64,000 nucleotides of DNA from a methanogenic archaeon mixed culture ISO4-G1 (GTDB lineage: Archaea; Thermoplasmatota; Thermoplasmata; Methanomassiliicoccales; Methanomethylophilaceae), in NCBI GenBank assembly GCA_001563305.1, contig CP013703.1:682001-746000 (forward strand), in the 5' to 3' direction. The stretch's first letter is position 1; every line of letters begins with the position of its first letter. Shown here one piece after another: positions 19,583 through 49,336 of this stretch. The notes beneath the pieces are model-generated. The model was not told the origin of the DNA and did not search any database. It saw nothing but the letters and a program-made list of their open reading frames with translations. Position numbers and translations under genes: made by a program.

Positions 19583-19900
19583 ATGGCTAAAAGGAGGTAT
19601 AAGAAATTCCCCCATTATGATGATGGGAAGAAATACAAATTGACCAGTTTGGATGATTTCTTTACCCCCGAAGAGCTGTCGAAAGATGTCTTCGGATTCC
19701 TGACTGCCATCACCGATACCGACGTGGAGGGATTCTTCGCGGTGTTCGACCTCGGGGGCAGCGTCAGAGCGACCCAGATCTATTCTCAAGATATTCTGGA
19801 GAAACTTGTCATCCCGGATGTATTGAAAGACCACCCTGGAGCCTTTTACAGGATATTCCCCGAATCGGAATTCGACAGGGTGGTCAAAGGTTCTGCTTAA
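19583..19900 (+). CDS. Hypothetical protein, 105 aa
   Basis: No family recognised. The protein has a basic N-terminus (MAKRRYKKFPHYDDGKKYK) followed by an acidic, hydrophobic globular part (DVFGFLTAITDTDVEGFFAV). No signal peptide, membrane segment or Cys motif is present. It converges on the GIY-YIG helicase gene: its TAA ends on the base before that gene's TGA begins. It is transcribed alone. Codon use and tight packing support a real gene. Confidence 0.65.
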   Translation: MAKRRYKKFPHYDDGKKYKLTSLDDFFTPEELSKDVFGFLTAITDTDVEGFFAVFDLGGSVRATQIYSQDILEKLVIPDVLKDHPGAFYRIFPESEFDRVVKGSA

Positions 19901-22396
19901 TCAGTTTCCTCTCAATTCTTCAACAGAGATCACAGTGTCGAAGAGACCGACCTGCTGACCAGCATGCCTGTCGATACCGGTGTATGAAAGGCTGGAATCC
20001 TCGTACCTCTTGAACTTGTAGACAGCATCATTCATCAGAGGGCCGTTGAAGACACCGAGACTGACCAAAAGCTCGAAATCCTTGACTTCGAGGCCGGTAA
20101 CTTTCTTGAAGAGGCCCGGTTCCAATTGTGTGATGACATCTTTGAGACAACATTCCCTGAAATCAGTAAGATACATGAAGATGGGGATGCGGGTGGCGAA
20201 CTTGATCAGTTTCTCTTGGATCTGCTTACGTTTGCTCTTGTATTCCTTTTCTTCCTCTGTAAGTTTTTTCTTCTCTGATTGGGACATTTCACCGTCACCG
20301 AGATTCCTCTTCTTCTCCTTGACAGCCTCGGATTTGTTGATGATGGTCTCGATATCATTGTTGAGAGATCTGAAACCTTCAATACTCATCAGCGCTTTCA
20401 TGGCTTGTTCATTGGCCATCAGACGTGCAAGGGTGTTGTTATCGACATTGACCAGCAATGCACTCTCCCAACGCCTAGCTAAAAGTGTAGCAGTGGTTCC
20501 GCTCATAGCGAATTCCAGCACACCGGCTGCGGTGATCGCTCTCATAGAACTACCATCGTAAGCCAAAACGGGAAGGAACCCGATGAATTCCTGGACCTTC
20601 TTCTCAGGATCGGTCTCATTGACATTGAGCCTGCAGCTGTAATCAGCGATCTGCTTAAGAGCACGATTGGGAGCGAAATCGAAGATATAGCACTCCTTCT
20701 TCATCACATCATGTTTAGTCGGCGAAAGCTCATTGTCGACCACCCACGGAGACTGAACACGGAATGCTGCCTGGAAATAGGTCTCCGGACTGGTAAGATT
20801 ACGCAGCATGAAGATGGCTGTCCAAGGCTTGATAGTAACACCTGTAGTAAGTTTACCGCATGATAGTGTGATAGATTTGCTATGAAGCGGATCCGTCATT
20901 GCCTTGCGTACAGGGCCGATGGCATCGACACCGATTCCTGCTGAAGTTCCCGCAGCCACCACGATATTGTAATCATGATAGAACTGGTTCTGCTTTTGCA
21001 TCAGAAGATTGCGCATGGCATAACATGACGATACTCTGGGAAGCAACCAGAATGTGTGGTTGAGCACACCGAGCAATCTCACATCTGAGAAAGGCATAGG
21101 CGGTCTGGACGCCCCTAGTTTGAGATCCGTGATATTGGTTGCAGAATCGGATCCGCGGATGATGTTCAACCATTTCTGAACCTCATCCTCGTGCTTGAAT
21201 CTTGCATTGTCCCCTTCGCCCTCTGCCGCAAAGAACTCATTGAGATCGAACTGATCGAACTCACCTCCGGAAGCAATCTCGACAACGGAATCGGGCAATT
21301 TGTAAGTCATCAAGACCATACGAGGAAGCATCTCATAGGGGTTATCATCGCCGACCCAATTCTCTTTGGCACGCTGTTCATCGGAATAAGTCCAATTATA
21401 GATCTGTTCCTCGATGAATTCTCCAGAAGCGATAGCTCTGAAAGGTGTGCCTGAAAGATAAAGGTAGTATGATGTAGAGATAGGAAGCAATTCCTCATCG
21501 AAACCGTCTTTGAACAGTTCCATTCCTTCACCTTCCAGGAATTTCTGTTCTTTGGAATCTTCGGATTCGAAAAGATCCTTGGCTTTATCACGCCAGGCAC
21601 CGTAGTGGTATTCGTCAAAGATGACCAGATCCCAATGGATCTCATGGGCCCATTTGTTCTTCAACTTGATGCCGCCTGCTTCGTTCTTTCCCAGATAATC
21701 CTGGAATGAAGCGAAACATACGAATGGTTTGGATTTGTCAATCTCGTCATAAGTCTTGCCGTCACGAGATATGAACTGCCAGCCTTCAAAATCTACATGT
21801 GATTCCAGATCCTCCTGCCAAGCACTCTGAACAGCAGGCTTGAAAGTAAGGATCAAGACCTTTTTGAAACCCATACGTTTCGCCAATTGATACGATGCGA
21901 AGGTCTTACCGAAACGCATCTTAGCATTCCAGAGGAAATGTGGAATCTTATTAGGATTTTCAGCATGATAACTGCGGTAGTAATTCATGGTCTTAGTAAC
22001 AGCCTCTTCCTGTTCAGGACGTAACTTGAAGGATTGAGTACGGTGCTCCTCATTCTCGATACCGTTTCTTATGGCAACGATAGCGGCGATTACTTCTTTT
22101 TTCGAGCATTGAAACCATTCTCCTTCAGGATTAGGGACGCCATGCCGACGAAGATAAGCGTGGACAGCATAATCTTTGAATGTTGATCCATCATCCCTCA
22201 TCGCAGACTCATCAACAATAATCGTGTATGGGGGATTTCCGGGACGAGCAGTAGGATATTGTTGAGCTACACGTTTCTCAACATCGATCGCAGTATAACC
22301 TACCTTTAACAGACCATTATAGATTGGATTAGAATCAGAATATGCATAAATCCTAGGATTGGAGGAAGGCCGCTGTGGAAAGAAGTCATTGTTCAT
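19901..22396 (-). CDS. GIY-YIG/DEAD-box helicase restriction protein
   Basis: An 831-residue protein, the probable restriction subunit of a methyltransferase-linked system. Residues about 15-60 look like a GIY-YIG (T5orf172-type) nuclease: RIYAYSDSNPIYNGLLKVGY, then VEKRVAQQYPT. An SF2 helicase follows, with motif I region NAKMRFGKTFASYQLA, motif Ia LILTFKPAVQSAW, motif II IFDEYHYGAW, motif III YLSGTPFRA and a motif VI-like region ETYFQAAFRVQSPW. The C-terminal 200 residues are charged and unassigned. It overlaps the upstream methyltransferase gene by 11 bases and is last in a three-gene operon. The likely role is ATP-dependent cleavage of unmethylated foreign DNA. Stop TGA. Confidence 0.85.
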   Translation of the reverse strand: MNNDFFPQRPSSNPRIYAYSDSNPIYNGLLKVGYTAIDVEKRVAQQYPTARPGNPPYTIIVDESAMRDDGSTFKDYAVHAYLRRHGVPNPEGEWFQCSKKEVIAAIVAIRNGIENEEHRTQSFKLRPEQEEAVTKTMNYYRSYHAENPNKIPHFLWNAKMRFGKTFASYQLAKRMGFKKVLILTFKPAVQSAWQEDLESHVDFEGWQFISRDGKTYDEIDKSKPFVCFASFQDYLGKNEAGGIKLKNKWAHEIHWDLVIFDEYHYGAWRDKAKDLFESEDSKEQKFLEGEGMELFKDGFDEELLPISTSYYLYLSGTPFRAIASGEFIEEQIYNWTYSDEQRAKENWVGDDNPYEMLPRMVLMTYKLPDSVVEIASGGEFDQFDLNEFFAAEGEGDNARFKHEDEVQKWLNIIRGSDSATNITDLKLGASRPPMPFSDVRLLGVLNHTFWLLPRVSSCYAMRNLLMQKQNQFYHDYNIVVAAGTSAGIGVDAIGPVRKAMTDPLHSKSITLSCGKLTTGVTIKPWTAIFMLRNLTSPETYFQAAFRVQSPWVVDNELSPTKHDVMKKECYIFDFAPNRALKQIADYSCRLNVNETDPEKKVQEFIGFLPVLAYDGSSMRAITAAGVLEFAMSGTTATLLARRWESALLVNVDNNTLARLMANEQAMKALMSIEGFRSLNNDIETIINKSEAVKEKKRNLGDGEMSQSEKKKLTEEEKEYKSKRKQIQEKLIKFATRIPIFMYLTDFRECCLKDVITQLEPGLFKKVTGLEVKDFELLVSLGVFNGPLMNDAVYKFKRYEDSSLSYTGIDRHAGQQVGLFDTVISVEELRGN

Positions 22397-23918
22397 TGGT
22401 ATCGCGACCTTTACCTATATCTGTGATTCTGGATTGAATGAACTCCCATTCATCAGGAGTTATACCCCAAAGATCAATCAGCATTTCGTCGGTATACGTG
22501 CCAGAATAATGATGTAAATCAGGAACGAAGCAAAAATTCTTCTTGGTAACATCCTGAGACACTACTGTTTGAAGTAACAAAAATCTTACGACCTTTGTCA
22601 GGATATACGACTTGAAAGACAATGTTTCCTTTTCAGAATCAAAATTTCCAAGAATAATAAACGATTCTGTACAGCATTCTCCAGGCTTTATTATTTTAGT
22701 ATTGCCATCATAATAGAATCCCACAGGTTTTGTAAAATCAGTCTGTCCTGCTATAGGGGCTTTAGGAGCAATATATTTCCATTTATTCAAGTATCCTTTA
22801 GAATCATCAACATCAGACGGATCAGCATACATTAATCCAATTTTCTGTATAAACCAGCAAGGAATCCCGGTTTTACGAGGTTCATAATTGGTAGGCAACC
22901 CAAATGGCTTTCTCGAAGATACAAAGTCATCCAAATACCCATTATTGCCATGAACGGAAAGAACCTTTTTCACAATTTGAACAGCCTTACCATGACGAAT
23001 AAAGGTATCAAATTCATTCAGAGCACGCTCTTTAGTGTCTAGTTGGTCGCCGAAATGACTAGTAACTGAACATAAGCCTCTATTGTCACGATCCCAAAGG
23101 AAATAGCAGATACCTCCGGCAATATCGACGCCCTGGAAGACGTCTTGACTGTTCTCAAAGTCGACGAGAACTCTGATACGATCATCATTGAGCATTTCCT
23201 GACGGAAAGAATCTAGACCCTTTCCACCTGCATACCAACGTGCCGGGATAATCATCGTCAGATAACGGGGGTTGAGTTTCATTGCCTGCTCGACAAACAA
23301 ATGATAGATAGGTTTAGCGCTCATACCGTTGCCCCCATCGCTCAGTTGATATGGGGGATTACCTACAATGACATCAAATTTCATTTTGAAAATCTCCTCG
23401 GGTTTAAGAACATGAATAAATAGATAGGCATGAGCTTCGAGATCATCGGGACGATCATAGTTATCTCTATTAGCTCCGCAGAATTGACAATTATTACCTG
23501 ACCAAGTATGATGCGTGGGCTCGAATAAAATGCGACCTTCTTCTGTGAAATCACCAGTACAAATCGAATAATCTCCGTTCGCATGTTTGGAACAATACAG
23601 ACTGCGCCTCGATAAGAGGGCAGTAAGTTCGGTGATCGCGATGCCATACAATTGTTCCTTGCAGATGTGATTGATGCGTTCCTGAAGGTCTGGGTAGACA
23701 TCCATCAGGCCTTCGATGAGCCGCTTTGCAATCTCTCTGAGGAACACACCTGATTTACAACAGGGATCGAGGAATTTGATCTTCGGATCCGACCATATTT
23801 CTTTCGGGAGAAGATCAAGCATCTCGTTTGCAATGTTCGGAGGTGTGAACACCTCATCATTACTCAGACTGGCCAGACATGAAAGTACATCAGGGTTATG
23901 GTTTTCGTACTCATTCAT
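22386..23918 (-). CDS. Eco57I-type adenine-N6 DNA methyltransferase
   Basis: A 510-residue DNA adenine methyltransferase-like protein. A degenerate SAM-binding motif (KFLDPCCKSGVFLREIA) occurs near residue 50, and the catalytic motif IV FDVIVGNPPYQLSDGG near residue 190. A four-Cys segment (CSKHANGDYSIC ... CQFCG) sits between them. The downstream half resembles Eco57I-like target-recognition regions. It overlaps the upstream small methyltransferase-like gene by 8 bases and the downstream GIY-YIG helicase gene by 11, so the three are translationally coupled. It most probably methylates the recognition site to protect host DNA. The AT-rich sequence is unlike the core genes. Stop TGA. Confidence 0.85.
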   Translation of the reverse strand: MNEYENHNPDVLSCLASLSNDEVFTPPNIANEMLDLLPKEIWSDPKIKFLDPCCKSGVFLREIAKRLIEGLMDVYPDLQERINHICKEQLYGIAITELTALLSRRSLYCSKHANGDYSICTGDFTEEGRILFEPTHHTWSGNNCQFCGANRDNYDRPDDLEAHAYLFIHVLKPEEIFKMKFDVIVGNPPYQLSDGGNGMSAKPIYHLFVEQAMKLNPRYLTMIIPARWYAGGKGLDSFRQEMLNDDRIRVLVDFENSQDVFQGVDIAGGICYFLWDRDNRGLCSVTSHFGDQLDTKERALNEFDTFIRHGKAVQIVKKVLSVHGNNGYLDDFVSSRKPFGLPTNYEPRKTGIPCWFIQKIGLMYADPSDVDDSKGYLNKWKYIAPKAPIAGQTDFTKPVGFYYDGNTKIIKPGECCTESFIILGNFDSEKETLSFKSYILTKVVRFLLLQTVVSQDVTKKNFCFVPDLHHYSGTYTDEMLIDLWGITPDEWEFIQSRITDIGKGRDTNEQ

Positions 23919-24564
23919 TGACGATCAGCTCCTTATAGTGGACCGCTTTGAATTCTTTAACTGGATTTGGAACGAACTCTGCCTTCTTCTCCTGGGAGGT
24001 CCAGCCTGCATCGAAAATGGAAGTCTGCTTGCTACGGGCGCGAAGAAGCTCGCTGAAAGAGAAATCTCTTCTTTTGATGAGATTCCCTGTAACATTGGAC
24101 CATTCTGAGAACACGATGGGTTCACCATCGAGATCCAGCATGGTCAAGGCATCGCCACAGACGATGTTATGCGACAGGATGAAACGGATGACATTCTCGA
24201 ACTCTTTATTCGCATAAGGCTTGCAAGATGTATGGTACCTCTTGCTGAATGCCTGGAAGAGACGTTCGCGGCATTCCTGGACGTTGTCCTCAAGGAGATC
24301 TATTCCATAGAGGCTGCCGACGCCAATGACCAGATACTTCTCGCATTCAGTCTGGGATTTGCGATACTGATCGAAGATGACGTCCATCTTTCTCCTGAGT
24401 ATCTCGATAAGGAAATTACCGGTACCGCAGGCAGGCTCGAGGAAACGGGAATCGATGCGTTCGGTCTCATGTCTGACCAAATCCAGCATGGCATTGACCT
24501 CCCTTTCGGAAGTGAAGACCTCCCCATGATCTTCCACCCTCTGCTTAGACTTGATCTGTTCCAT
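23911..24564 (-). CDS. SAM-binding methyltransferase-like protein, no NPPY motif
   Basis: A 217-residue partner of the adjacent methyltransferase. It opens with VEDHGEVFTSEREVNAMLDL and has a textbook motif I, FLEPACGTGNFLIEIL, plus YGIDLLEDNVQECRERL, as in N6-adenine methyltransferases. After GDALTMLDLDG, where an NPPY motif would be expected, none is found. The protein therefore binds SAM by inference but is probably not catalytic alone. The following gene has the reverse: an NPPY with a poor motif I. The two may form one functional enzyme. A TATA-like TTAAAATAT about 40 bases upstream and an adjacent CGAGGGAA mark the operon start. Stop TGA. Confidence 0.8.
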   Translation of the reverse strand: MEQIKSKQRVEDHGEVFTSEREVNAMLDLVRHETERIDSRFLEPACGTGNFLIEILRRKMDVIFDQYRKSQTECEKYLVIGVGSLYGIDLLEDNVQECRERLFQAFSKRYHTSCKPYANKEFENVIRFILSHNIVCGDALTMLDLDGEPIVFSEWSNVTGNLIKRRDFSFSELLRARSKQTSIFDAGWTSQEKKAEFVPNPVKEFKAVHYKELIVNE

Positions 24565-24739
24565 GCGTTCCCTCGGGCTGTATATCCGTTATAGATATTT
24601 TAAGGAAAGGAAAACCTGATTGAACTGGTAATTCTATGCGTACTATGAAGTATTCATTCATATCAAGAATCATATGGTGGGATGAGAGGTGCAATATATT
24701 TTCACTAGCTCTAATGTTGAAGATTATTCGAGTGGCCGT

Positions 24740-25786
24740 TTAATCTTCATGAGAGGCGATTATTTCTTGCATAAGAATGCCCATATTGGTACCAGGCTCT
24801 GTCATCAAATCTGAAATTTCTGTTTTGAATAAAGGGTGCTGTGAATTAATTATCGCATTTTCGATCCCTGGCAATAATTTGGAATCAAATAATGATGAGA
24901 TGTGCTTGGTTTCAGGAATTTTGAGGTATTTTTGAAACAATTCAGAGACATATTGTGAGGGGCCTGTCCTAGCTTTATCCTTTACGGGACACGAATTCGG
25001 CCCCGAATATAACTTAAGGTAATCTAGATTGAGAGTCTGGATTTCAGAATATTTCATCACATGCAAAACCAACCATAATTCGAATTTTGGATAGGTGATT
25101 ATTAACCTGTATTTTTCTTCGTTCTTGTCACATAGTTCATTTATTTTTCCGATTGCCCTCATGTATTTGATATCGTTGAAATACCGCTCTGAATAGTCCC
25201 TATCGTGGATGATACAAACATTATCCTGAGAAAAAACATTCTTATTGCTGATATCTAACTTAATGATCTTTCCTAAAATATCGAATTTGTACTTCCGCCG
25301 GATTTCAGAACGACAGTACTGAACTGCATTGTCTAGATCCTTAATGAACCCTGAAGAGGAGATATATCCCTTATTATTCATAGATGTCAATAGTTTGGAT
25401 CTAAACGGTTGGATATCACGAGTCAGATAATCGTTATATTCCGAGTAGCGGTCTTTTTTGATGAATTCCATTCTCTTTGTATGACACAGTGGCTCAAAAA
25501 CGATATTAAAGAAATAAATGTAGTGAAATTTTTTGTTTTTTAGAGTTTTGATAAAAGAGTTTGACATTTCGATGAGTTTTATAATGTCTGTTTCAAACCA
25601 ATCTGCTTCACTCCTTTCTATTTCCTTGGGAGTGATAATAAGATCTAATTTAGAATCGTCAGCAGCTGTGCTGATTCCGTCAAAGTATTCCTTTTCGGTA
25701 CATTCGCCCTCATAAATCAAGAAATACTGTTTGTTAGAGGCCTTTTTCAATTGGGAGCGGGACAATCCAGGGAATGCAGAACTCAT
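24740..25786 (-). CDS. RloB/AbiLii-like protein
   Basis: A 348-residue member of the RloB/AbiL-ii group, Toprim-related proteins found with AAA ATPases in abortive-infection systems. Diagnostic segments are FLIYEGECTEKEYFDGI at the N-terminus, the acidic CIIHDRDYSERYFNDI in the middle, and YPKFELWLVLHVMKYSE further on. Its start overlaps the stop of the upstream AAA gene by four bases (ATGA). It is the last gene of a three-gene module after two AAA-15-type ATPases. The expected role is a nuclease or toxin effector controlled by the ATPases. Stop TAA. Confidence 0.85.
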   Translation of the reverse strand: MSSAFPGLSRSQLKKASNKQYFLIYEGECTEKEYFDGISTAADDSKLDLIITPKEIERSEADWFETDIIKLIEMSNSFIKTLKNKKFHYIYFFNIVFEPLCHTKRMEFIKKDRYSEYNDYLTRDIQPFRSKLLTSMNNKGYISSSGFIKDLDNAVQYCRSEIRRKYKFDILGKIIKLDISNKNVFSQDNVCIIHDRDYSERYFNDIKYMRAIGKINELCDKNEEKYRLIITYPKFELWLVLHVMKYSEIQTLNLDYLKLYSGPNSCPVKDKARTGPSQYVSELFQKYLKIPETKHISSLFDSKLLPGIENAIINSQHPLFKTEISDLMTEPGTNMGILMQEIIASHED

Positions 25787-27138
25787 TTATCCTCGTCCCC
25801 TTTGAATAATTGATCATATTTGCCATTGAGATAATCCTTCTCATTGATCGCATAAATGTATTCATTATGACCGATTACAGAATGGATTTTTGAGATGTTT
25901 TCATCTGACTTGCTAATAAAACGAACTTCATCATCACGGAGATAATCTGAGCTGATAAGAGAAGATTCATGAGTGGTAAAAATCAATTGCTGTCTCTTTT
26001 CCGGCTTTTGATTAAAGAGTTTCAATAGCTCCTGCGTAGCAATTGGATGCAGTTTTCTATCGAATTCGTCCACTATGAATAATGAATCCGGTTTCGTATT
26101 ATTCAGTAGGTCACAAAACTCTAATAGTCTCAGAGTACCATCAGATTCCTGATTCCAATCTAAGGGACTGTCAACACCTTCATGGTAGAATATCAGTTTG
26201 AGAGCCTTGATCCCTTCACGAGAGGTTATCAAAAATGAGCGGTTACCATCAGTCTTACTATCGAGGATACCAACCTGAGATCCCTCTTCTATGCAATCTT
26301 CTAAGATACGATCGATATCAGTTCTATCGGGTGAAGAATAAATATCTTTCTTAACATCATTAATAATGCTTAGATTTTGGTCCGTAATATCTACAGCTTC
26401 AACTTTGGTGATCCCGGTATCAAAATGATACAGTATTTCGCTGATAGCTTTCATATCTTGTTTTATAAACTCAGGCCTGTCAGGATGAACTATACAAATC
26501 TTGATAAACCAATCAATAGCATCACACAGTAAACTATTCCATATCGATCTCATTTTTTCATATTGTTCTGTATAGAAATCGGGCTTGGTTGATACGAATC
26601 TGTAGACTTGCGAGAGTTTGGCATCTTTATCATTCATGAAGAAACAAAGATCTGAGTCAGATGTTTCTAATACAGTTACGTAAGAATAATCGTCAATTGG
26701 ATCCTTTAACAATTTGATACCGTTTCTGTCGTTGGAAAAGACAAGAATGTCCTCATCACCTTCTCTTACATACAGATATTCGATTATTTCCGGTCCTGTC
26801 GTTATAGTAAGGGAATAGGTAAAAAGATGATTGTTATTTGAGAATTGGATTTCAAATCTCGATGACGATGAATTTAAAAACGATATGTTGCGAATTAGAT
26901 CTACAATAGCTCTCTCTTTTGGGGAACCCACAATTAGTTCACGCAATAAGTCAAACGTTTGTATAAATCTGGTTTTGCCAACGTCGTTTAAACCGAATAT
27001 TGCGATATTACGGACAATCTCTTTATCGAAATTTTTGACTACATGATCAGGATGATTGATATCCTGGAAGGCGGCAGCACTAACTTCAAAACCGTATTCG
27101 TAGGGCGGATAATAACTAACTTTAAAACTGTGGAGCAT
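25783..27138 (-). CDS. AAA-15/OLD-like ATPase (second copy)
   Basis: A 451-residue ABC/SMC-type ATPase. The Walker A region is atypical, IFGLNDVGKTRFIQTF. The signature-like region DWNQESDGTLRLLEF precedes Walker B SLFIVDEFDRKLHP, and the His-switch-like segment IFTTHESSLIS follows, all typical of the AAA-15/AAA-21 group found with RloB. It differs strongly from the ATPase encoded just upstream, so the pair could form a heteromeric ATPase. The start codon overlaps the upstream gene's stop (27138) and its own stop overlaps the RloB-like start. Likely role: sensor or regulator of the RloB effector. Stop TGA. Confidence 0.8.
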   Translation of the reverse strand: MLHSFKVSYYPPYEYGFEVSAAAFQDINHPDHVVKNFDKEIVRNIAIFGLNDVGKTRFIQTFDLLRELIVGSPKERAIVDLIRNISFLNSSSSRFEIQFSNNNHLFTYSLTITTGPEIIEYLYVREGDEDILVFSNDRNGIKLLKDPIDDYSYVTVLETSDSDLCFFMNDKDAKLSQVYRFVSTKPDFYTEQYEKMRSIWNSLLCDAIDWFIKICIVHPDRPEFIKQDMKAISEILYHFDTGITKVEAVDITDQNLSIINDVKKDIYSSPDRTDIDRILEDCIEEGSQVGILDSKTDGNRSFLITSREGIKALKLIFYHEGVDSPLDWNQESDGTLRLLEFCDLLNNTKPDSLFIVDEFDRKLHPIATQELLKLFNQKPEKRQQLIFTTHESSLISSDYLRDDEVRFISKSDENISKIHSVIGHNEYIYAINEKDYLNGKYDQLFKGDEDK

Positions 27139-28475
27139 CAGTGCACCACCTTTCTGAATCTAGGAATACCTTCAAATCTATTGTTAAGATAATCACTTTT
27201 TAAATCGCCTGAAGGCAACTCATACGAGTCCAACGATTCCAAGAATGTTGTATTTTTTTTCTTGTTAACTAGCCAGAATTCATCCGGGCGTAAGACTTCC
27301 TTAGACATTATTTCGGTTTCGTGAAGGGTTATGACAAACTGAGCGGTTCTATCAATTTCAAATAAGTTTTTCAGAAGTTTATTAACGATACTAGGGTGGA
27401 GTGCATAGCAAATCTCATCATATATGTAGATCATGGAAACTGGTCTAAGATATGATGCAAAATGGATTCCAGACTGTTTTTCACTGGTTATTTCTGATAT
27501 ACGATTAATAGCTTTTTCTAGTAAACTATTGGGGGTTGTAGATAGAATCCTCATAACGATATCGATAATTCTTAAGACACCACTGGATAGTTGATTTAAT
27601 TCAAGAAAAGTTTGGGTGTCCCCAATACAGAAACATACTTCACTAACTTCTGTACTGCCATCGGTATTCATTTTGATCACAATCATGTGGCTTCTACTAT
27701 ACTTTATGAACGAATCGCATTCAAATGCGATTGGATCACCATCAGGCAAATTCGGCTTTTTAACAAGTTGATATCCTGTTACATCAGTAGTATCGGCTAG
27801 ACATTTGAGTAAAGTATCCAATGCCTGATGTGCTTTTTCAATTATTAAATCAAAACTATCATAATCAGAACTAGACAGTATATTGAATGATTCTATCTCC
27901 CTATATGTAGAAAGGAAATAGAATAATGGGCGTTCATTTTCATTTTTCAAAGAAATAAGAGGTTTTGATTCATCGTTAAACGATTTGATAGCATTGAAGA
28001 TATTGTCTACATCTTCCAAATGGCTGTCGAGTGTGATATGCGTCTTTTCTCTTGTAAATAAAGGAACATCTTTTCCATCAGGCTGTACTCTAGATAGTTT
28101 TTCAAAGATAACCTTATTATTAAACGAATCGAAATCTAATGTATAATGGTAATTAAAATTCCCAGTATGGTACAGTTCAAAGTGTGTATTAGTATTGGAA
28201 GAAGCAAAACAACTAACGTCCCCGTTAAGTCTTCCTTTGAGTTTGTAAGGGATTAATTCAGAATGTTCACCAGTGACCAGATATTTCAGATAATCGAATG
28301 ATAAGGTGATATTAGTTTTTCCTGAAGCATTGGCTCCGAACAATGCTGCTGTTTTCAAAAAACCATCATTAGTCAATTGCTCTGGGTGAGATTGATCATC
28401 AGAAGGGATGAACATGATATCTATCGGTTCGTTTATGGAGAGAAAGTTTCCTACACGAAAAGAAACCAGAGTCAT
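27138..28475 (-). CDS. AAA-15/OLD-like ATPase (first copy)
   Basis: A 445-residue ATPase of the AAA-15 group. It starts MTLVSFRVGNFLSINEP, the usual N-terminal strand, followed by Walker A LFGANASGKTNITLSFDYL. Near the C-terminus are the signature-like ELNQLSSGVLRIIDIV, Walker B SMIYIYDEICYALHP and the FVITLHETEIMS segment. It is the first gene of the module, with a TATA-like AT-rich region at 28480-28530. The coupled order is ATPase, ATPase, RloB-like. AbiL and RloAB systems are usually described with a single ATPase. Stop TGA. Confidence 0.85.
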   Translation of the reverse strand: MTLVSFRVGNFLSINEPIDIMFIPSDDQSHPEQLTNDGFLKTAALFGANASGKTNITLSFDYLKYLVTGEHSELIPYKLKGRLNGDVSCFASSNTNTHFELYHTGNFNYHYTLDFDSFNNKVIFEKLSRVQPDGKDVPLFTREKTHITLDSHLEDVDNIFNAIKSFNDESKPLISLKNENERPLFYFLSTYREIESFNILSSSDYDSFDLIIEKAHQALDTLLKCLADTTDVTGYQLVKKPNLPDGDPIAFECDSFIKYSRSHMIVIKMNTDGSTEVSEVCFCIGDTQTFLELNQLSSGVLRIIDIVMRILSTTPNSLLEKAINRISEITSEKQSGIHFASYLRPVSMIYIYDEICYALHPSIVNKLLKNLFEIDRTAQFVITLHETEIMSKEVLRPDEFWLVNKKKNTTFLESLDSYELPSGDLKSDYLNNRFEGIPRFRKVVH

Positions 28476-31327: not shown

Positions 31328-34114
31328 ATGAGAGAAACATCGATTGAGGTCAACGACCGGGGTGAGAAAGGAAGGGAGTCGTCCACTTCTGCGAGGGATT
31401 TTAAGATGAAGAAGACCAAGACCATCAGAGAGATTTACGAGGAAGCCAAAGCTCTGAACGTCGACCTTATCCTAACCAATGATGCCGCTCTCGCTACGGC
31501 CATCAACGCCATGGTAGACGAGCCCATGGTAGGTTCGTTCGCCATGACACCTATCCAGATGGCATCGAAACATGCCATCGACATCCTCGGTGAGCCAATC
31601 TGGAGCGAAGTCAGGGTCATACAGACGATCTCTGAGTATACCGGACTAGATTTCAGGTATGTGCATGGTGAAGTCGACAAGATCAAGGATATCGCAAGAT
31701 ACAGGGAGGACATAGAGCAGTTCCTAACATCGTCTTCCAAGAGGGTATACAGAAACTGGGCATCGCTTCCAACATTAGAAACGGCGATGAGGAAGTTCGA
31801 TGCTGACAATGCGCAGATCTACGAGGGTAAGAGGATCGGCACAATCGGAGCACAGTACTTCAATCGTATGGACAGGATGATGGTTCCGACCGATTCTCAG
31901 AATTTGGATATCTCAATCTTCAAGGATGGTGACTACAGGATCCCGAAGATCTTCGGGATAGGCAATGACAGGCAGATTGCCGACAACGCTGTGAAACTCA
32001 TCAACCCCCTCAACCCGTTGGATTATGCAATCGTGATGAACAGAGATTCCGGGCTAGCGGACGCAGTCAGGTCGGCACTGTACAGGGAGGGGCTTCCTTT
32101 TGTAAATGCTCTGGGTGTACGCGACCTGAATGGTATCAGGGACTTCATGCAGATGGCCGACAGATGCATGTCATATTGGACTCTCAGGGTTAGGGATGTA
32201 AGGAGCCTGTTCGCATCATTTGGAATAACGATATCGTCGAAGTCCGACGAACACCTTTTGCACAAGGAGAGATTCTGGGACGAGAAGGCCGAGGCATTAA
32301 GGCTGCTGATGGAAGAGACCAGCCTGTACGAGGATCAGGGCCACGGCACAACATTCCTGGACCTGGCTGAGAAGATTTACGACATCTCGGGAATGGATCA
32401 CAGGAGAGGACTGCCCTCGATCAAAATAGTCATCGACGATATGAAGCTCACCGACGAGCTCATTACACCTCAGAATGTTTCCAAGATGGAGTACGCGGTT
32501 GACAATGTCATGGACCTGCACCACAACGAGCAGATTCCCGAGGACGAGAAGAGAGGGGTTCTGCTTTCGGATTGCAAGAGCTCCGTGTTCATCGACAGAC
32601 CTGTGGTCATATACCTGGGTATGGAACAGGATTGGAACGTCGATCTGGTCAAGAAACCGTACATTCCCTGTATCGAGGATGAGGTTGATAACGTGGCGGA
32701 CACTATGTCTGCGATGTTACAGCAGGGATCCGTCAGATTCTATCTGGTCAATAGGACCAAGGAGGGGAAGACGGCAGTGCCCACCACAATGTTCAATGAG
32801 ATGATCAAGGTTAAGCCGAAGCCGATTGAGAGGTTCAGTGATATCACCGACGACTACAGGGAGGAGAGATGGTACGAGCCGCAGAAGTCGGGATACAATG
32901 TCAAAATCTCGGACTCTGAGGAGAAGTATGTTGCACCGTTTTCCCAATCCAACTTTTCCGAGTACGTCAAGTGTCCTAGGGGTTTCATGTTCAAAACGAT
33001 GTTATCGGATCCGGATAAGGCTGTGATGGAATTTGGTACTATGATCCACGAATTTGCTGAGACATATGCCAGTTATAAGAGGGAGGTCATGGAGAAAGGA
33101 CTTGATTCATTCATCAAGCAATCTTGTGACAGGTTCTCAGGTTTAAGCACACCGTTACTCGATGAATTCGACAAGGAAAGGATAAGATGTGCTGTGGTAA
33201 ACATCACGAGATTCATGGACCAAATGGGTCTTGGAGATCCGGGGGACGATGAATGGAAAGATGCAGATACCAAATATGGAGGTAACTGGTATTATGTCAA
33301 CAGTTTCGATGAGCCAAAGACCAAGACTTATTCTGAATGTGAGGATGATAAGGATTCGAACGAGCACAGGATACATGGCAAGATGGATTTAAAGCACGGA
33401 AATACCGTCATCGATTATAAGACTGGAGGGGCCAAATCAGGTAGCGAAATAGTGAAGAACTTCCAGTTGGACAAATTGGTACGGCACCCCGATTATCAAT
33501 GTTTGTTCTATCTTGCAGTTGCCTATGAACTGTACCACTCAGATACATTCCAGTTTTTCTTTGTCATGGATAATGATTTAGAATACATGGATCCAGATTA
33601 CGATATTAGACGCAATTTACGCACAGTAAAACTGATCGATAGGGACGTGGAGAGTTTAAAGAGAGATCCGTTAGTTTTGGACGCATTTGAGTCTGGTACT
33701 GCCTATAATGCTAAGTTCAAGGGGATGTCCGATCAGTTTATCGACATTTTGCTTGAGAATTCTAGTGGTGACATGTCTACTTGGGCAGATCCCAACATAA
33801 ACATCAGAGCATACAATGCTTTGAGCGACAAGTTCTGTAGCGAGGATGGCATGGATCCCGACACCTTCACCAACAACGTCAACAGGTATGTGGGGCTGAT
33901 AACAGCTCCGGTAATAGCATCATCAACAACCGTGTATGTGCAGAAGAAATATCTGGATGAGTTTCTCAATAAGGTGGATAAAATGCATGCCGAGATGTCC
34001 GAGGATTCTAAGAGAGTAGGCGGTTTGATGCCTTTTCCGAAGACCAACTGTCGCTACTGCAAGTACTTCTCCGTATGCATGATCGATAGGAATGATGAGG
34101 GGGCGGTAGAATGA
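31328..34114 (+). CDS. AddB-like PD-(D/E)XK nuclease with Fe-S staple
   Basis: A 928-residue AddB-type protein. The N-terminal 500 residues have no Walker A motif and would be the inactive helicase-like scaffold. From about residue 545 a Cas4/AddB-type nuclease follows: FSEYVKCPRGFMF (first Fe-S Cys), FGTMIHEFAETY (the His/acid motif), then HGKMDL and VIDYKTGG (the D...D-x-K catalytic core). CRYCKYFSVC near residue 909 supplies the C-x2-C-x5-C triad of the 4Fe-4S staple. All catalytic positions look intact, unlike the other AddB-like gene in this window. The final ATGA overlaps the start of the AddA-like helicase. It is expected to process DNA ends in repair or degrade foreign DNA. An in-frame ATG at 31406 is an alternative start. 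Confidence 0.85.
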   Translation: MRETSIEVNDRGEKGRESSTSARDFKMKKTKTIREIYEEAKALNVDLILTNDAALATAINAMVDEPMVGSFAMTPIQMASKHAIDILGEPIWSEVRVIQTISEYTGLDFRYVHGEVDKIKDIARYREDIEQFLTSSSKRVYRNWASLPTLETAMRKFDADNAQIYEGKRIGTIGAQYFNRMDRMMVPTDSQNLDISIFKDGDYRIPKIFGIGNDRQIADNAVKLINPLNPLDYAIVMNRDSGLADAVRSALYREGLPFVNALGVRDLNGIRDFMQMADRCMSYWTLRVRDVRSLFASFGITISSKSDEHLLHKERFWDEKAEALRLLMEETSLYEDQGHGTTFLDLAEKIYDISGMDHRRGLPSIKIVIDDMKLTDELITPQNVSKMEYAVDNVMDLHHNEQIPEDEKRGVLLSDCKSSVFIDRPVVIYLGMEQDWNVDLVKKPYIPCIEDEVDNVADTMSAMLQQGSVRFYLVNRTKEGKTAVPTTMFNEMIKVKPKPIERFSDITDDYREERWYEPQKSGYNVKISDSEEKYVAPFSQSNFSEYVKCPRGFMFKTMLSDPDKAVMEFGTMIHEFAETYASYKREVMEKGLDSFIKQSCDRFSGLSTPLLDEFDKERIRCAVVNITRFMDQMGLGDPGDDEWKDADTKYGGNWYYVNSFDEPKTKTYSECEDDKDSNEHRIHGKMDLKHGNTVIDYKTGGAKSGSEIVKNFQLDKLVRHPDYQCLFYLAVAYELYHSDTFQFFFVMDNDLEYMDPDYDIRRNLRTVKLIDRDVESLKRDPLVLDAFESGTAYNAKFKGMSDQFIDILLENSSGDMSTWADPNINIRAYNALSDKFCSEDGMDPDTFTNNVNRYVGLITAPVIASSTTVYVQKKYLDEFLNKVDKMHAEMSEDSKRVGGLMPFPKTNCRYCKYFSVCMIDRNDEGAVE

Positions 34115-37068
34115 CAGAGAAGAAAGGGCCAAACAAAAAACAGCAGGAATTGATCGACCAACATAACGGCATGGTCAAGGTGGATGCCGGACCTGGCACT
34201 GGGAAGACAGACACAATTGTCCACAGGTATGTAGATATCCTGAAAAATGAGCAGGTTCCCCCAGGAGAGGTCCTGATGTTAACATTCACCGAGAACGCAG
34301 CGGAGGAGATGTCCGAGAGGATAAAGTTCGAGATGGAGAAGAAAGGCCTCACCCAAGAGAAGAAAAAAGTCTTGGCCATGACATTTGACTCATTCTTTCA
34401 CTCCATAGTGATGGACAATGTCGAGTTTGTAGGGGACTTCTTCGGTATAAAGAAGAAGATGACTCGCTCTGCCACCCTCAGCTCCAACGAGACCATGAAC
34501 AAGCTGTACTTCAGGAGATACTATGAGGATTTTATGGACAGGCATGGTAGTAGGTATGGTGATATCGCGGTGATACTTGCGAGCGAGTGGGCCATTATGT
34601 ACGATCTCATTCAGAGGTTGATGTCCAAAGGGGTGGTTCCAATCAAGGACGGCTGGTTCGGATACAACTGGAAGGAGGCTCTGTACGGCAAGAAGGAACT
34701 TTCCGATAGGATGAAGGGCCTTATGGGCAAGAAGTTTACAAAAGCTCTGAAAAACAATAAAGAGTATTCCCAAGACTTCTCTGGGAAACTGGTTACGCAG
34801 GAAACCATAGATGATGCCATCAGAGGAAATCGCGAAATGTTGTCAGAGTTGATCCATGATGTGTTTTTAGGATACATCGAGAAAAGTATCTCAGACAACA
34901 GGCTAACCTTCGCGTTGAATTCGACGTTCGCTTTCACACTGCTCTACGGCAGTAAAATTGTAAGAGATGCCCATAAGTTCACTTACGTGGTAATAGATGA
35001 GTTCCAGGACACAGATGCTAAGCAGCTAATGGTGGCTCTGATGCTGCTGAAAAAGGACTGTCCAAATCTGTGCGTGGTTGGAGACTGGAAGCAAGGTATC
35101 TATGGGTTCAGATACGTATCTATAGAGAACATCAAGAACTTCAAGGGAAGGGTGGAGGAGCTTCATGCTTTCCTGAATTTGGACTGTCCAGACGGTAGGA
35201 GAGCAGATTTCAGATACGATTCGTCTGAGGTTAAGGAGGTTGTATTCAGGGAGAATTATCGCTCTACTCAGGAGATCGTGAACAAAGCGTACGACGTCAT
35301 GCTCGCCGAGGCTGTGAAAGGCGATGTGCAACCACCGAGCATGGAGGAGGATATTAAACGCATCACGGCTAAAAACGATTATTACAAGGCGTTCGAAGGA
35401 GGATTGAGATTCGTCCAAGCCAAGTCTCAGGATGATGAGCCTCTTATGGTAGTGAAGGCTGTGAGAGATTACGCGGACGGTAAGCATGTATTCTTCGAAA
35501 AGGACGGTACTAAGAGGATGTTAGACCTGAAGGACATCTGTGTATTGTGTCGCACGACTTACAAATGCAGAGAGGTGACCAATGCGTTGAAGGATGCTGG
35601 TATACCGGCATACTTACAGGGGGACGTAGAGATCATGTCTACTAGGGAGGGGAAGCTTGCATTGGCCTGGCTGAGATATGTGATGAACGAGCACGACCCC
35701 TATGGAATATATCCTATCCTTCTGGACCTTGGATATCCGATGGCGACGGTCCTCGTGGAGAAGAAAAGATGGGACGATTATCTAAGAACCAAGGATCAGC
35801 AGTACCTGAAAGACAAGATTCCGATGGAACTCAAGGACCAGAGGAAGGAGCTAATCAGGAGCAGTAGGAGGATACCCAGCATGCTGACCCAGTTGTTCGA
35901 GTTCTACGACGACCTGGATCAGGATATTGTGCAGGCCATAGTTTCTACAGTATCATCGTCACACAGGAACTCCCTGCTGACCATTGCAGATATAGTGTCG
36001 ATGATTGAGCAGGATATTGCCAATAGGACCAAGTACGAGGTTGAGGACAATATTGATAGGGATGCAGTGAGGGTCATGACGATGCATAAGTCTAAGGGAA
36101 TGGAGTTTGGGGCAGTCATCATCCCATACTTCGATTCCAGGAGTATGCCGAGCTCCGGATCCGGGGACATCTCCTAGAAGTCTATGTACTACAGTGAACT
36201 GGTTGGCGTCAGGTGCTTGTGTGATATGGTGGAAAACGGCGGCTATAAGAAGAAGGTTTACTCCTGGAGCTCTGACATGGTACGCTCGGTAGAGAAGCCC
36301 AGCTATGACGAGGATCATAGGCTGCTGTTCGTATCTTTATCCAGGGCGAAGATGTATGAGACATTGATATGCGGTCCGGACGAGTGCAGGTTCATGTAGT
36401 GCCTAAGGAAGGGGCGTGATTTCGAGGATATACCAGAACATCCGCTCAATGAGTTTGGATCAGTTCCGAAGCTTTCAGACATTCCGAAGGTCCCGCCCTA
36501 CGAGAAGAGGATCATCAAGATGTCCGTCCACGACATCATGAGGCTGAGGTACTCGTACAACGGGGATGAGATGTCTGACGAGATGGGCGGCAAGGGCATG
36601 GCCTACGGAACAGAGGTCCACAAGGACGCGGAGATGTTGAAGCGCGGAAGGGAGCCTGAGACGCCCAAACCGGAGCACGAGGTGATCCGTAGGATCCTGA
36701 AGGAAGTGGAATCCAGAGGACACATGTATGTATACGAAACGGAGATGGATTGCCAGCTGCCTATAAGGGATCAGAACGTGATGCTCAGGGGAACCATAGA
36801 CCTCATAGCAGGATACGACGACCATGTGGAGATTCACGATTGGAAGACTGACTCGGAGATGGATCCAGATGTGTTGGAGGAGTACAAACTGCAGCTTTCT
36901 GTATATGCTCAGGCGACGAAAGGATACTATGGGAAGGATGACGTAAGATGTTACATACACTATGTTAGCCTTGGAGAGACAGTTGCTTTTAAGCCTATGG
37001 ATACGGAGATGATTGAGGAGAGAGTCAGGGAGACGTTAATCACAAGAGGTGAGATAGAGATAGGGTGA
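34111..37068 (+). CDS. AddA-like helicase-nuclease with two in-frame TAG codons
   Basis: A single 985-codon frame interrupted only by TAG at 36175-36177 (codon 689) and 36397-36399 (codon 763). Before the first TAG: Walker A DAGPGTGKTDT (27-33), motif II VVIDEFQDTDAKQ (about 296), motif III VGDWKQGIYGFRYV, motif IV NYRSTQE and motif V TMHKSKGMEFGAVIIPY (about 655). Between the TAGs: motif VI RLLFVSLSRAKMYE (about 737). After the second: a PD-(D/E)XK nuclease with GTIDLIAGY and EIHDWKTDSEMD (895-913). Essential motif VI and the nuclease thus lie beyond TAGs, so the protein works only if UAG is decoded, most plausibly as pyrrolysine. No ribosome site suggests internal restarts. It overlaps the AddB-like gene (ATGA) and forms a helicase-nuclease pair with it. 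Final stop TGA. Confidence 0.8.
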
Positions 37069-37152: not shown

Positions 37153-38037
37153 TCAGTTTTTGGGTCCGAAATAGATCTCTCTTTCTTCCAACATCTCTTC
37201 TGTGGTCCAATTTAAGTACTCGTGTTTCCCACATACTTCGCTGGAGTTGAAAGTACAGTCCAGGTGTCTGTATTTGCCGTCTATGCGAGCAAAGTTCCAA
37301 GCATGCGTCTCATGATATCTTTTATGCGTCTCATGATATCTTATCGGTTCTTTTGTGAGGTTATACTTGTTATATGGACGGCTATCATTAGTATCGAACT
37401 TCTTAAGGGGGGCCATCCGCTCAAAGTATTCTTTCTCGCTGTACTTCAAGATGGAATTCTTGGCATTATGGTTCTTCAGATCTCCATGGATTACGTAGCA
37501 TTTGACTCCGAAGCAGTTGAGAAGTAGCGTTGCGGCTTGCGAATATGATATGCAGACTCCCTAATTCTCAAGCAGAATCCCCCTTACGTCATGCCTTATA
37601 CGGAAGTCCCCATCCTTGCAGTACGTACATTTCTGTACAAGCCATTCGTTGACCCTAATCTCTTTTTCCAAGTCAGTTTCGCAGTCTGCTATTCCAAGGT
37701 AGTTGTAGAGGCCGTTGACCCTGCACGTGACGGCTCTCTGAAGTTCGTTCTTTTCCTTATTTGGCATATATTTGAACTTAACCTCTGTTTTCCCGTTTAT
37801 ATGTTCGAAATCGAAGGATTCTAAATGATACAGCAGCGGGTTGCAGTAATTAGCAATGATGATGAACTCCCGAATCGTCTCTTCGTCAAAGATGCAAGGA
37901 AGCGTAACAGTCTTTTTTGATGTTTGGCTGGTCAGAGCTTTCAGTATCTTTTCGAATGCTTGGCGTTCTCCATCACTTGGATATTTGTCAGAAAGCCAAT
38001 CTGGTTTTGGAAACGTTATCAAAAAAGGGTCAATCAT
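37153..38037 (-). CDS. Transglutaminase-like protein with an in-frame TAG beside the catalytic Cys
   Basis: One 294-codon frame with TAG at 37563-37561 (codon 159). Downstream, the transglutaminase/protease core is complete: G-V-Cys162 in GVCISYSQAATLLLNCFGV, His245 in THAWNFARIDG and Asp260 in YRHLDCTF, the Cys-His-Asp triad. Upstream is about 155 residues with RVNEWLVQKCTYCKD and RHDVRGILLEN, the helix and turn that usually lead into K-G-x-C. The TAG occupies that position just before Gly-Val-Cys, so a lysine derivative there is natural. A short tandem repeat (RYHETH twice, 37305-37345) precedes the catalytic His. Starts with ATG at 38037, final stop TGA; no signal peptide. The substrate is unknown. 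Confidence 0.7.
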
Positions 38038-40478: not shown

Positions 40479-40637
40479 GTGCAGGACCGAAATCCTCCTG
40501 GTACCCGAAGGACGATCGATCGAAGACGGGAACCGTCTTCAAAAGGCCACCACACGGCACGACCATCTGCGAGGTCTGATATGTGCCGTGCCTGGACCAC
40601 CGGCAGATTAGCCGCGTCCGGCAATCAGGTCCTGCAC
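40479..40637 (-). ncRNA. Candidate structured RNA adjoining the reverse transcriptase
   Basis: A 159-base element closed by a perfect 10-bp terminal helix, GTGCAGGACC at 40479-40488 with GGTCCTGCAC at 40628-40637. Inside are two perfect 8-bp hairpins: CACGGCAC 40553-40560 with GTGCCGTG 40583-40590 (extended inward by GACC/GGTC), and GAAGACGG 40522-40529 with CCGTCTTC 40533-40540. On the minus strand it is followed by a T-rich run (ATCTTTTTCTCC). It overlaps only the last 13 bases of the RT gene. The architecture recalls the terminal a1/a2 pairing of retron RNAs or the ncRNAs of defence RT systems, but it is 3' of the RT gene rather than 5'. The strand is inferred from the U-tract and RT orientation. 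Confidence 0.5.
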
Positions 40638-41878
40638 GGCACTCCATCTTCGGATTCGGATTTATATCTACGGTTATAGAATCTGTTGACAAGGGTTTGG
40701 TAGCCCATTCCCTTCAGATATTGGTATGATACGCAATACAGGTTGCCCTTAACATGCTTTCCCGTGACGATGAATCTGCACCATTCCTGTATCTGATTAT
40801 CGATGATCTTTAGCGATTTATCAGTATTGATAAGAGGGAAGTACCAGTGCGTCCAGCAGGCCTTCGAGTTCTTCTCCCAACCGAAGAACCTCTGGTCCAT
40901 TCTGGTCAGGAAGCAATGGACGGATTCCTCTGTAGTCTTTTCGCCTATCTCAACCAGTTTTCTATAGTGCCTACCTTCCATTCTGATCTTCTTCATGGTC
41001 CTGTCCAAGGATTTTCTGTTCAGGTCGAATGAACCATCTTGGATGAACAGGCCCAGGAATTCGATTCTGTCATGAGGCCTGTAGAAGATCTCCTTGTCGG
41101 GGTTGATAACCAGATTTCTTTTTTTGATGAGCATCCTGACATACCCGACATGTTTATTCAGTTCCTCTTTGGAGTTTGAAAGGATAAGGATATCGTCAGC
41201 GAATCTGTAGTATTGGATCCTCATCTGTTTGAAATGGATGTCTATGTCGTTCAGATACAGATTGGAAAGGAACGTGGAGAATGGCAGGCCCGGCATGATG
41301 CCCCTTTTCTCATCTATGATGATCTCTCCTTCAAATTCGACCTCGGGATTACCGATTATACTGCCGATCAGTTCGATCACTCCTTTATCGATTCTCGCTT
41401 TCTTCATGATGCTAATCATCTTTTTCTGATCGACTGAGTTGAAGTATTTGGTGATGTCCGCTTTGTAGGCGTACATGGAACCTATATCATCTATGGCGCG
41501 AAGCCTGGCTACCGCTTTCTGGACGCCACCTTCGTTACGGAATGAATATAGATTATCCTGGAAGATAGCGTCATAATCCTGCAGCAGATCGGCCAGCACC
41601 CTCAGGACCATATGTTCGGTCATGTCCTTGCGTTTACATGAGTAGACAACACGTTTCTCTTCCGAATCAGGTTTGGGGATCTCGATCCTGCGAACAGGTT
41701 TGAATGTATACGTGCCATTACGTATGCTTTCAACAATTCCTCTGTATCTTCTGTTTACGATGAAATCCTCCATGATCTCTGCTTTCTCTTTGCTAGCAGA
41801 TGTCGATTTGCGCTTTAGGAAATCATCCCATACGGAATCGTCGCATAATCTGTCTATAATGGATCTGGATTCGGCCAT
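40625..41878 (-). CDS. Reverse transcriptase
   Basis: A 417-residue RNA-directed DNA polymerase. Core motifs: MYAYKADITKYFNSVDQ (motif A Asp), GIMPGLPFSTFLSNLYLNDI (motif B), QYYRFADDILILSNS (motif C, catalytic ADD), then KRNLVINPDKEIFY and RIEFLGLFIQDG. The roughly 150 C-terminal residues (FFGWEKNSKACWTHWYFPL, WCRFIVTGKH) have no maturase HNH. The motif B sequence is not the group II intron QGxxxSP form nor the SQ form typical of diversity-generating elements. It therefore looks like a stand-alone, possibly defence-related RT. A ribosome site AGGTGAAAG precedes the ATG. The structured element at 40479-40637 begins at its stop codon. Stop TGA. Confidence 0.85.
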   Translation of the reverse strand: MAESRSIIDRLCDDSVWDDFLKRKSTSASKEKAEIMEDFIVNRRYRGIVESIRNGTYTFKPVRRIEIPKPDSEEKRVVYSCKRKDMTEHMVLRVLADLLQDYDAIFQDNLYSFRNEGGVQKAVARLRAIDDIGSMYAYKADITKYFNSVDQKKMISIMKKARIDKGVIELIGSIIGNPEVEFEGEIIIDEKRGIMPGLPFSTFLSNLYLNDIDIHFKQMRIQYYRFADDILILSNSKEELNKHVGYVRMLIKKRNLVINPDKEIFYRPHDRIEFLGLFIQDGSFDLNRKSLDRTMKKIRMEGRHYRKLVEIGEKTTEESVHCFLTRMDQRFFGWEKNSKACWTHWYFPLINTDKSLKIIDNQIQEWCRFIVTGKHVKGNLYCVSYQYLKGMGYQTLVNRFYNRRYKSESEDGVPCRT

Positions 41879-47027: not shown

Positions 47028-47849
47028 ATGAGTAGTATCCGGATAATGCATGTGTCGGAAAGTTGTAGTTTCGACCAGTCTTTGGAGAGAACAATCATGG
47101 TAGAATCGTCATCTAAAGAATATGATGCCCCTTGCAATCTTTCAAAATATATTGTTCCATTCGCATTCATAAAGATGGATGCGTTTATCGGCGTAGGCGA
47201 GAACGATCAAGGACAACGTTGTTTTGTCATCTCCGACAGATTCATACATAAACCGGATCTGATATGGGACCTTATCACCGAGGCCATGACCACGAAGAGG
47301 GTTCCCCTATCCGTTCACTATTGGCTCTATGAATCTGGATATTACCAATGCCATATCGATGAGTACCTGCGGGTATGCGGGATTTATTCGTGCTCAACAA
47401 AGTATCGCAATCGTGACATCATGGCATCGGTCAGAAGGCTCATGGATTTGGATCTCATTACAGAATCGGATATTGAATCTCTAACATTCACATGGAGCTT
47501 GTACCCGATACAGGATTATTGGGGCTTCTATAGACCTGATTTGAGCCTGATTGTCATCAATCCGATTCTTTCAACCAGCGAACTTTCGTTACGGTGTTTT
47601 GATGAAATCGTATATCATGAAATTCTCCACCATATTCAACATAGTTCTAGTACAAGTTCTCTCGAACATGATCAATAGTTCATGGATTGCGAAAAAAGAT
47701 ATCCAGCATTCCAGAAGGCTCTTGATGAGCAATGTTTCTGGTGGATGAAACATGGGAAAGCGTTCAAGAACCCCATTGACGACAACGATCTTACGTACAG
47801 TAAGCTCCCGATGTTAGACTACGTTTACAATTACAATGGCGCACTGTGA
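47028..47849 (+). CDS. SprT-like zinc metallopeptidase with an in-frame TAG
   Basis: One 273-codon frame with TAG at 47676-47678 (codon 217). Upstream lies the zinc motif HEILH (His197-His201) in DEIVYHEILHHIQ, then EHDQ. Immediately after the TAG comes FMDCEKRYPAFQKALDEQ. SprT/YgjP-like archaeal peptidases have H-x3-F ... E-x2-[FY]-P about 13-20 residues after HExxH, supplying the third zinc ligand. Here His214, X217 and Phe218 reproduce it across the TAG. The C-terminal part (CFWWMKHGKAF) ends at TGA. Without decoding of the TAG this motif is lost. The N-terminal 130 residues are unassigned. It converges on the coiled-coil gene two bases beyond its stop. Confidence 0.7.
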
Positions 47850-47851
47850 AT

Positions 47852-48703
47852 TCAGAAGAATATTATGAGCGTCTTTCCGTTGAGCTGTGCCTCGAAAGTA
47901 CGACTTTCGTAGTTTAGATAATCGCCGATAGCGGGAAGATCGATAACGTTGTCGATACATACTGCCTTCCCCTCAATATCAGGGGTGAATGTGATGTACT
48001 CGCCGCTTCTGGCCAGCTTGACAGCGTATCTCTTCTCCGTGAATAGGTCGCTCTTGAATGATGTGGGGGAATCCCAAACGATAGTGCCTGCTGTTTCAGG
48101 CTCGCCCTTGACATGCGATTCTAATTCCTTCTCGAGGTCGGATATTTTTCCTTTGAGTTCCTCGATTTCTGAATCCTTATCTTCAATCTGTTCGTGTAGT
48201 TTTCCGTTCTCACTCTTTTCCGTTTCAAGCGATGCAGTTACTGATTCGAGTTTCTTGTTAAGTTTCTTGATCTCACTGTCATCCTTCTCAACGACTTTTT
48301 CGACGGGCCTCTTCTTCAGATTATCCTTGAGAGTTTTGATCTCCGTCTGGGACCGCTCAAGTTCCTTTTTCTTTTCCTCAATCGTCTTATTCTGCTGATT
48401 GATTTGTTTTTTCAGGGCATCTTCGCTCTTTTGGAGTTTGCTGTTCTCCTTACGGAGTTCAGCATTTTCGTTCTTGAACTTGTCCTTATCTTTTACGGCC
48501 TTGTCCAGCTTCTTTTTGTAGTCCTTCTCCATGTTGTCGTATTTCAGTTTGGACACGGTCTCGTTGTCCTTGGACGTGAAAACCGCGTGAGCCTGTTGCT
48601 CTTGTCTGGCTTTTTCATACATTTCGTATGCTTCGGGGACAACATTAAAGCTAGGAGGCTTCTGTGAATCTTCAGACTTTTTGGACTTCTTCGGCTTGGC
48701 CAT
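47852..48703 (-). CDS. Long coiled-coil protein with a C-terminal globular domain
   Basis: A 283-residue protein from the ATG at 48703; a longer frame opens at 48754 but looks non-coding. After a Lys/Ser-rich start (MAKPKKSKKSEDSQKPP), residues about 50-205 form a charged coiled coil (ENAELRKENSKLQKSEDALK). The last 70 residues are globular: KRYAVKLARSGEYITFTP, EGKAVCIDNVIDLPAIGDYL and a hydrophobic end GKTLIIFF. That domain resembles the C-terminus of the protein at 49329-50339. The gene is divergent from the NYN-domain operon, 66 bases apart. Possibly a structural or scaffold partner of those genes. Stop TGA. Confidence 0.7.
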   Translation of the reverse strand: MAKPKKSKKSEDSQKPPSFNVVPEAYEMYEKARQEQQAHAVFTSKDNETVSKLKYDNMEKDYKKKLDKAVKDKDKFKNENAELRKENSKLQKSEDALKKQINQQNKTIEEKKKELERSQTEIKTLKDNLKKRPVEKVVEKDDSEIKKLNKKLESVTASLETEKSENGKLHEQIEDKDSEIEELKGKISDLEKELESHVKGEPETAGTIVWDSPTSFKSDLFTEKRYAVKLARSGEYITFTPDIEGKAVCIDNVIDLPAIGDYLNYESRTFEAQLNGKTLIIFF

Positions 48704-48769
48704 GAGAACGGAGAATGAATCGACACACAAAGTAATAATTCTATTGAAACGCATCTAGGAGTCGTTAAT

Positions 48770-49336
48770 ATGTCCCTTTACTCCGACCACACATATAGCC
48801 GCGTCATGGTCTTCATCGATTACAGGAACATCGCCGAGGCCAACAAAGAGATGCAGGAATATGCAGAGATAGACTTTCTCAGACTGACCAAGATCCTTGT
48901 GGGAAAGAGGGATCTTATGGGCGCCTACATCTTCGACGCTCTGAGGAAGGTGGATCCAGACAAGGATCCCACCGCCCGTATCCACGATAAGCTGAGATAC
49001 GACGGGTTCAGGGTCATAGCCAGGCAGTCAGTCAAGGTCAATCCGATGGGGCAGGAGGAGCAGAAGGAGGTCGATGTCTCGCTGGCATGCGAGATGCTGG
49101 AGCACGCTTTGCTAAACCATTTCGACGTCGCCATCGTCGTTTCCGGGGACAGGGATTTCGTGCCTGCGATGAAGAAGGTGCAGGCAGCCGGTAAGAGGGT
49201 GGAGGTCGCATCCTTCGAAGGTTCCCTCGACGACGAGAGCAAGAAGATTGCAGATATCTATCACAGGCTGGAGGATATCCCATTCATGTCAATGGCCCCT
49301 CTGACCATCGATACGGATGTGAGCGAGTATGAGTGA
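48770..49336 (+). CDS. NYN (LabA-like PIN) domain ribonuclease
   Basis: A 188-residue protein of the NYN/LabA family, PIN-fold metal-dependent ribonucleases. The first Asp is in RVMVFIDYRNIAEA, the middle acidic pair in KEVDVSLACEMLEHAL, and the third in VAIVVSGDRDFVPAMKKV, all at expected places. Residues after 165 are a short tail. Its stop overlaps the start of the next gene by eight bases, so the two are translationally coupled. RNA cleavage is expected, in defence or RNA turnover. Stop TGA. Confidence 0.88.
   Translation: MSLYSDHTYSRVMVFIDYRNIAEANKEMQEYAEIDFLRLTKILVGKRDLMGAYIFDALRKVDPDKDPTARIHDKLRYDGFRVIARQSVKVNPMGQEEQKEVDVSLACEMLEHALLNHFDVAIVVSGDRDFVPAMKKVQAAGKRVEVASFEGSLDDESKKIADIYHRLEDIPFMSMAPLTIDTDVSEYE

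Follow-up and report, generated by a model that had tools for sequence, protein, structure and literature searches.

The gene of a transglutaminase-like protein in the methanogen ISO4-G1 carries a single in-frame TAG three codons before the codon of the catalytic cysteine, and this TAG is probably a sense codon read by tRNA-Pyl, presenting a tolerated replacement of lysine by pyrrolysine (Pyl) at position 159 of a 294-residue protein. The gene occupies 37153..38037 on the minus strand of the window, the whole stretch of 64,000 nucleotides that was analysed.

Reading frame and homology across the TAG

With the TAG read through, the gene comprises 294 codons from an ATG start to a TGA stop. The TAG at codon 159 (37561..37563, minus strand), in position -3 from the catalytic Cys, is the sole interruption of the frame from 38037 to 37153; TAA, TGA or frameshifts were not detected across the 294 codons. 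Under translation table 11 the open reading frame ends at the TAG and encodes 158 amino acids. The codons of the catalytic triad lie downstream on the same strand: Cys162 (TGC, 37552..37554), His245 (37303..37305) and Asp260 (37258..37260), each of them present in 26 of 26 homologues. The initial annotation had reported an in-frame TAG at 37563-37561, three codons before Cys162, with the Cys162-His245-Asp260 triad behind it, and both statements were borne out by the reading of the frame and by the invariance of the triad.

The Transglut_core profile (PF01841) matched residues 117-260 in one stretch spanning the TAG, with an E-value of 2e-9 and 38.1 bits against a cut-off of 23. The piece behind the TAG alone was matched at profile positions 52-107 (E-value 0.0044), and a profile search with the piece before the TAG gave no meaningful family match. 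The continuous match together with the separate match of the downstream piece indicates that the TAG lies within a single domain rather than between two genes. A profile built from 21 relatives, including the ISO4-G1 protein itself, matched the locus with one TAG inside. Besides the Cys-His-Asp triad, the His-x-Trp-Asn and Asp-x-Thr motifs are kept. Judged by profile, triad and fold, the product of 37153..38037 is a member of the transglutaminase-like superfamily (PF01841) with a putative enzyme activity as a crosslinking enzyme, protease or deamidase.

Homologues without the upstream domain, or a separate translation start for the C-terminal part, had been named in the initial annotation as observations that would speak against a continuous protein. 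The homologues turned out to be single chains with the upstream region and the catalytic part together, several of them matching from query residue 15-25 onward. A scan of the frame revealed no start codon between the TAG and Cys162; the first candidates are a TTG at codon 197 and an ATG at codon 208, both past Cys162. A C-terminal protein restarted at either of them would lack the catalytic Cys, thus readthrough is the only route to the full triad and is not refuted by these starts. An insertion stem-loop as Pyl signal was also considered and rejected: the RNA after the TAG formed a stem-loop no stronger than those of shuffled sequences and folded worse than the shuffles (z +2.4).

TAG as a sense codon in the genome and the window

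ISO4-G1 is an isolate of the Methanomassiliicoccales from the sheep rumen (Kelly 2016, PMC4824259). Its genome, a single contig of 1,593,503 bp, contains a complete Pyl cassette (pylT, S, B, C, D): the gene of a tRNA-Pyl (anticodon CTA) immediately precedes pylS, and pylB, pylC and pylD follow. PylS, PylB, PylC and PylD are intact, all above the NCBIfam curated cut-offs. Genes of di- and trimethylamine methyltransferases with an internal TAG are present as well. Kelly 2016 described the pyl operon, the readthrough of UAG and 25 genes of Pyl proteins in ISO4-G1, of which nine are methyltransferases and the others are unlisted (PMC4824259); the transglutaminase-like gene may be among them. In the related M. 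alvus, TAG accounts for 1.6 % of the stops, and amber codons were proposed to be retained as stable mutations in settings with few TAG stops (Borrel 2014, PMC4153887).

The in-frame TAGs of ISO4-G1 were inspected in a few stretches of the genome. The convergent neighbour of the transglutaminase-like gene, a UvrD/AddA-like helicase that also has a nuclease domain (34111..37068, plus strand), contains two in-frame TAGs (codons 689 and 763). Among 31 genomes of the genus, its own included, 28 gave matches to this helicase-nuclease, mostly near full length and with 43-47 % identity. In the 11 genomes examined for these sites, homologues have N, S, R, D, V or a gap at codon 689 and K, E, D, Q or T at codon 763; the homologues read through at both sites, thus TAG is sense here. 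Three other species have TAGs in the same gene, elsewhere along it. By this comparison, TAG is an ordinary sense codon in the conserved helicase-nuclease gene of the genus, with freely varying positions. A second copy of the helicase-nuclease in the ISO4-G1 genome (C1:813250-816087) has one TAG.

The Pyl cassette, the Pyl methyltransferases, the sense TAGs of the neighbour, the homology across the TAG and the lack of a start before Cys162 together give good support to a reading of the TAG at 37561..37563 as Pyl, which we regard as very likely on these genomic grounds.

Further open frames with a TAG were observed in the window. A frame of 581 codons (17626-19371, minus strand), interrupted by a single TAG (codon 177), had no Pfam match and possibly encodes a Pyl protein. 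One internal TAG each was present at 3880-4980 (plus strand), 47028-47849 (plus strand) and 47852-48985 (minus strand), all without a clear family; these may be TAG-ended genes or Pyl proteins. A part of the window (9481-28475, minus strand) is rich in defence genes and low in GC3, with UvrD helicases, an Eco57I-type methylase, a T5orf172/ResIII protein and an AbiL-like pair, and the reverse transcriptase at 40625-41878 (minus strand) matches the UG26 class of defence-associated reverse transcriptases (PADLOC, E-value 2.5e-140). The transglutaminase-like protein is itself encoded in defence-rich surroundings, but no PADLOC profile of an anti-phage defence protein matched it, and a known defence role was rejected on this basis.

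Position -3 and the state of the gene

The initial annotation had described position -3 as commonly Lys or Arg, and the relatives agree: 17 K and 4 R were counted among 26 relatives (21 of 26), with one K depending on the placement of a gap, and in a broader collection of 44 motif matches, Lys or Arg was present in 29. In an alignment of 20 sequences, the column contained 85 % Lys/Arg. The other residues at this position are Y, W, V, L, M, Q and E, and neither homologue nor family-profile searches found a TAG at position 159 in another member of the family. As far as the relatives tell, position 159 prefers Lys, but Lys is not required. The TAG occupies one of only two columns of the alignment with at least 80 % Lys/Arg. 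Among the 36 aligned codons one step away from TAG, two are located in such columns, thus blind placement would hit one of them with a chance of about 5 %. This is a weak hint against blind placement; it may reflect that Lys sites tolerate Pyl best and is no evidence of a function. The +1 residue is Asp or Glu in 42 of 44 relatives, regardless of the residue at -3. A charge pair between both positions (Lys159-Glu163, both altered in ISO4-G1, where residue 163 is Ile) was ruled out as the 44 relatives showed no covariation.

An AlphaFold2 model built with 13 relatives reached a pTM of 0.73, with pLDDT values mostly of 67-96 for residues 1-190 and mostly poor values for residues 190-294. Residues 159-160 were modelled as a short strand immediately preceding the active-site helix, which begins at Cys162. 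Foldseek matched the model to 9CRN, 4XZ7 and 3ISR. The best fold match (E-value 2e-9, probability 1.0) was TglA of Streptococcus pyogenes (PDB 9CRN), also the best PDB sequence match to the family profile (E-value 2e-18); it shares 17 % identity with the ISO4-G1 protein in the fold match and has Leu, not Lys, as aligned -3 residue.

Close relatives were absent from the species-level genome collection, the viral contigs and the order, where only distant paralogues were found; the best match in any other genome had about 33 % identity over 125 residues. The ISO4-G1 protein agrees with 18 of the 31 strongly conserved columns, the lowest count among the 21 sequences. Ile-Ser replaces the Glu-Gly that almost all relatives have behind the Cys, and the C-terminus ends before the C-terminal region of the archaeal relatives. 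A perfect in-frame tandem duplication of 21 bp (RYHETHK RYHETHA; 37303..37342, minus strand) ends on the codon of the catalytic His; being perfect, it is probably recent. On the evidence of these comparisons the gene is a fast-diverging orphan.

In the reading that we prefer and consider fairly likely, tRNA-Pyl would decode the TAG and one 294-residue transglutaminase-like protein with Pyl at position 159 would be formed. The TAG most likely originated from a single-base change, probably from the Lys codon AAG, in a genome whose translation is not halted by such changes, and Pyl would be tolerated at a site that is usually Lys or Arg yet accepts bulky neutral residues. We infer for this locus the incorporation of Pyl, an ancestral AAG, tolerance over benefit, and an active protein.

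The main rival to a tolerated Pyl is a decaying gene, released from selection, in which the TAG would be one among several damaging changes even with readthrough by tRNA-Pyl. The low retention of conserved columns, the loss of the Glu-Gly, the perfect duplication at the catalytic His, the lack of an orthologue in close relatives and the early end of the protein would all fit decay. However, across its 294 codons the frame has acquired neither TAA nor TGA nor a frameshift, the duplication preserves the frame, and Cys, His, Asp and both motifs are intact, and we consider decay rather unlikely. Much less probable still is a termination at the TAG that would yield an N-terminal protein of 158 residues, or a switch governed by the availability of Pyl. 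The table-11 frame ending at the TAG and the RNA after it, in which no specific insertion signal is apparent, are compatible with a stop, but the N-terminal piece alone has no meaningful family match, the homologues are single chains, TAG stops are as rare in M. alvus as stated above, and the in-frame TAGs of the neighbour imply readthrough. Among the alternatives, we rate this one lowest.

The initial annotation had gone further and proposed that Pyl in this place could be functional and not merely tolerated. Such a residue might take part in substrate binding or in the regulation of the catalytic Cys, and the preference for Lys/Arg three residues from an invariant Cys as well as the modelled strand directly before the active-site helix are in line with this proposal. 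Against it stand the acceptance of Y, V, W, Q, L, M and E at position -3, the restriction of the TAG to a single member of the family, the unconstrained positions of the TAGs in the conserved helicase-nuclease gene and the missing covariation between the -3 and +1 residues. Pyl is an amide of the Lys side chain and has no charged amine; it is thus no obvious substitute where the role of Lys rests on charge. We consider a functional Pyl at -3 very unlikely. With a variable -3 residue, TAGs placed freely in a conserved gene of the genus and a fast-diverging gene without close relative, the functional claim of the annotation found no support, and a special role for Pyl at position 159, judged from these sequences, is highly improbable. 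The same holds for a direct part of Pyl in the chemistry or the substrate choice, three residues before the catalytic Cys, which would make it a functional Pyl outside the methylamine methyltransferases.

Relation to known pyrrolysine proteins

The transglutaminase-like gene is best read as a further case of the tolerated amber codons that Borrel 2014 (PMC4153887) proposed for Pyl-decoding gut methanogens. Should the protein be produced in active form, it would show that a largely conserved Lys immediately next to an active site can give way to Pyl, and the gene would be a useful case for asking how far UAG serves gut methanogens as an everyday sense codon. Were Pyl to prove important for the activity, it would have a function beyond the metabolism of methylamines. 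At present, the evidence points to one further tolerated amber codon in a genome for which 25 genes of Pyl proteins had been described.

In MtmB, MtbB and MttB, UAG is likewise read as Pyl, and a catalytic role has been reported for Pyl in these enzymes. Their UAG is conserved across species, whereas no other member of the transglutaminase-like family has the TAG. The Thg1 (tRNA-His guanylyltransferase) of Methanosarcinales is likewise a non-methyltransferase enzyme with Pyl, which, as far as the account of Heinemann 2009 given in PMC4153887 and PMC8211752 goes, is explained by neutral evolution; according to the same articles the Thg1 case was studied experimentally, whereas the ISO4-G1 case comes from sequence analysis. 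The list of M. alvus (Borrel 2014, PMC4153887) does not include a transglutaminase-like protein. The putative Pyl proteins of the Methanomassiliicoccales (PMC4153887, PMC4824259) have in common with the ISO4-G1 gene an in-frame TAG in an ordinary gene, homology on both sides and homologues without TAG; unlike them, the transglutaminase-like gene has its TAG next to a catalytic residue.
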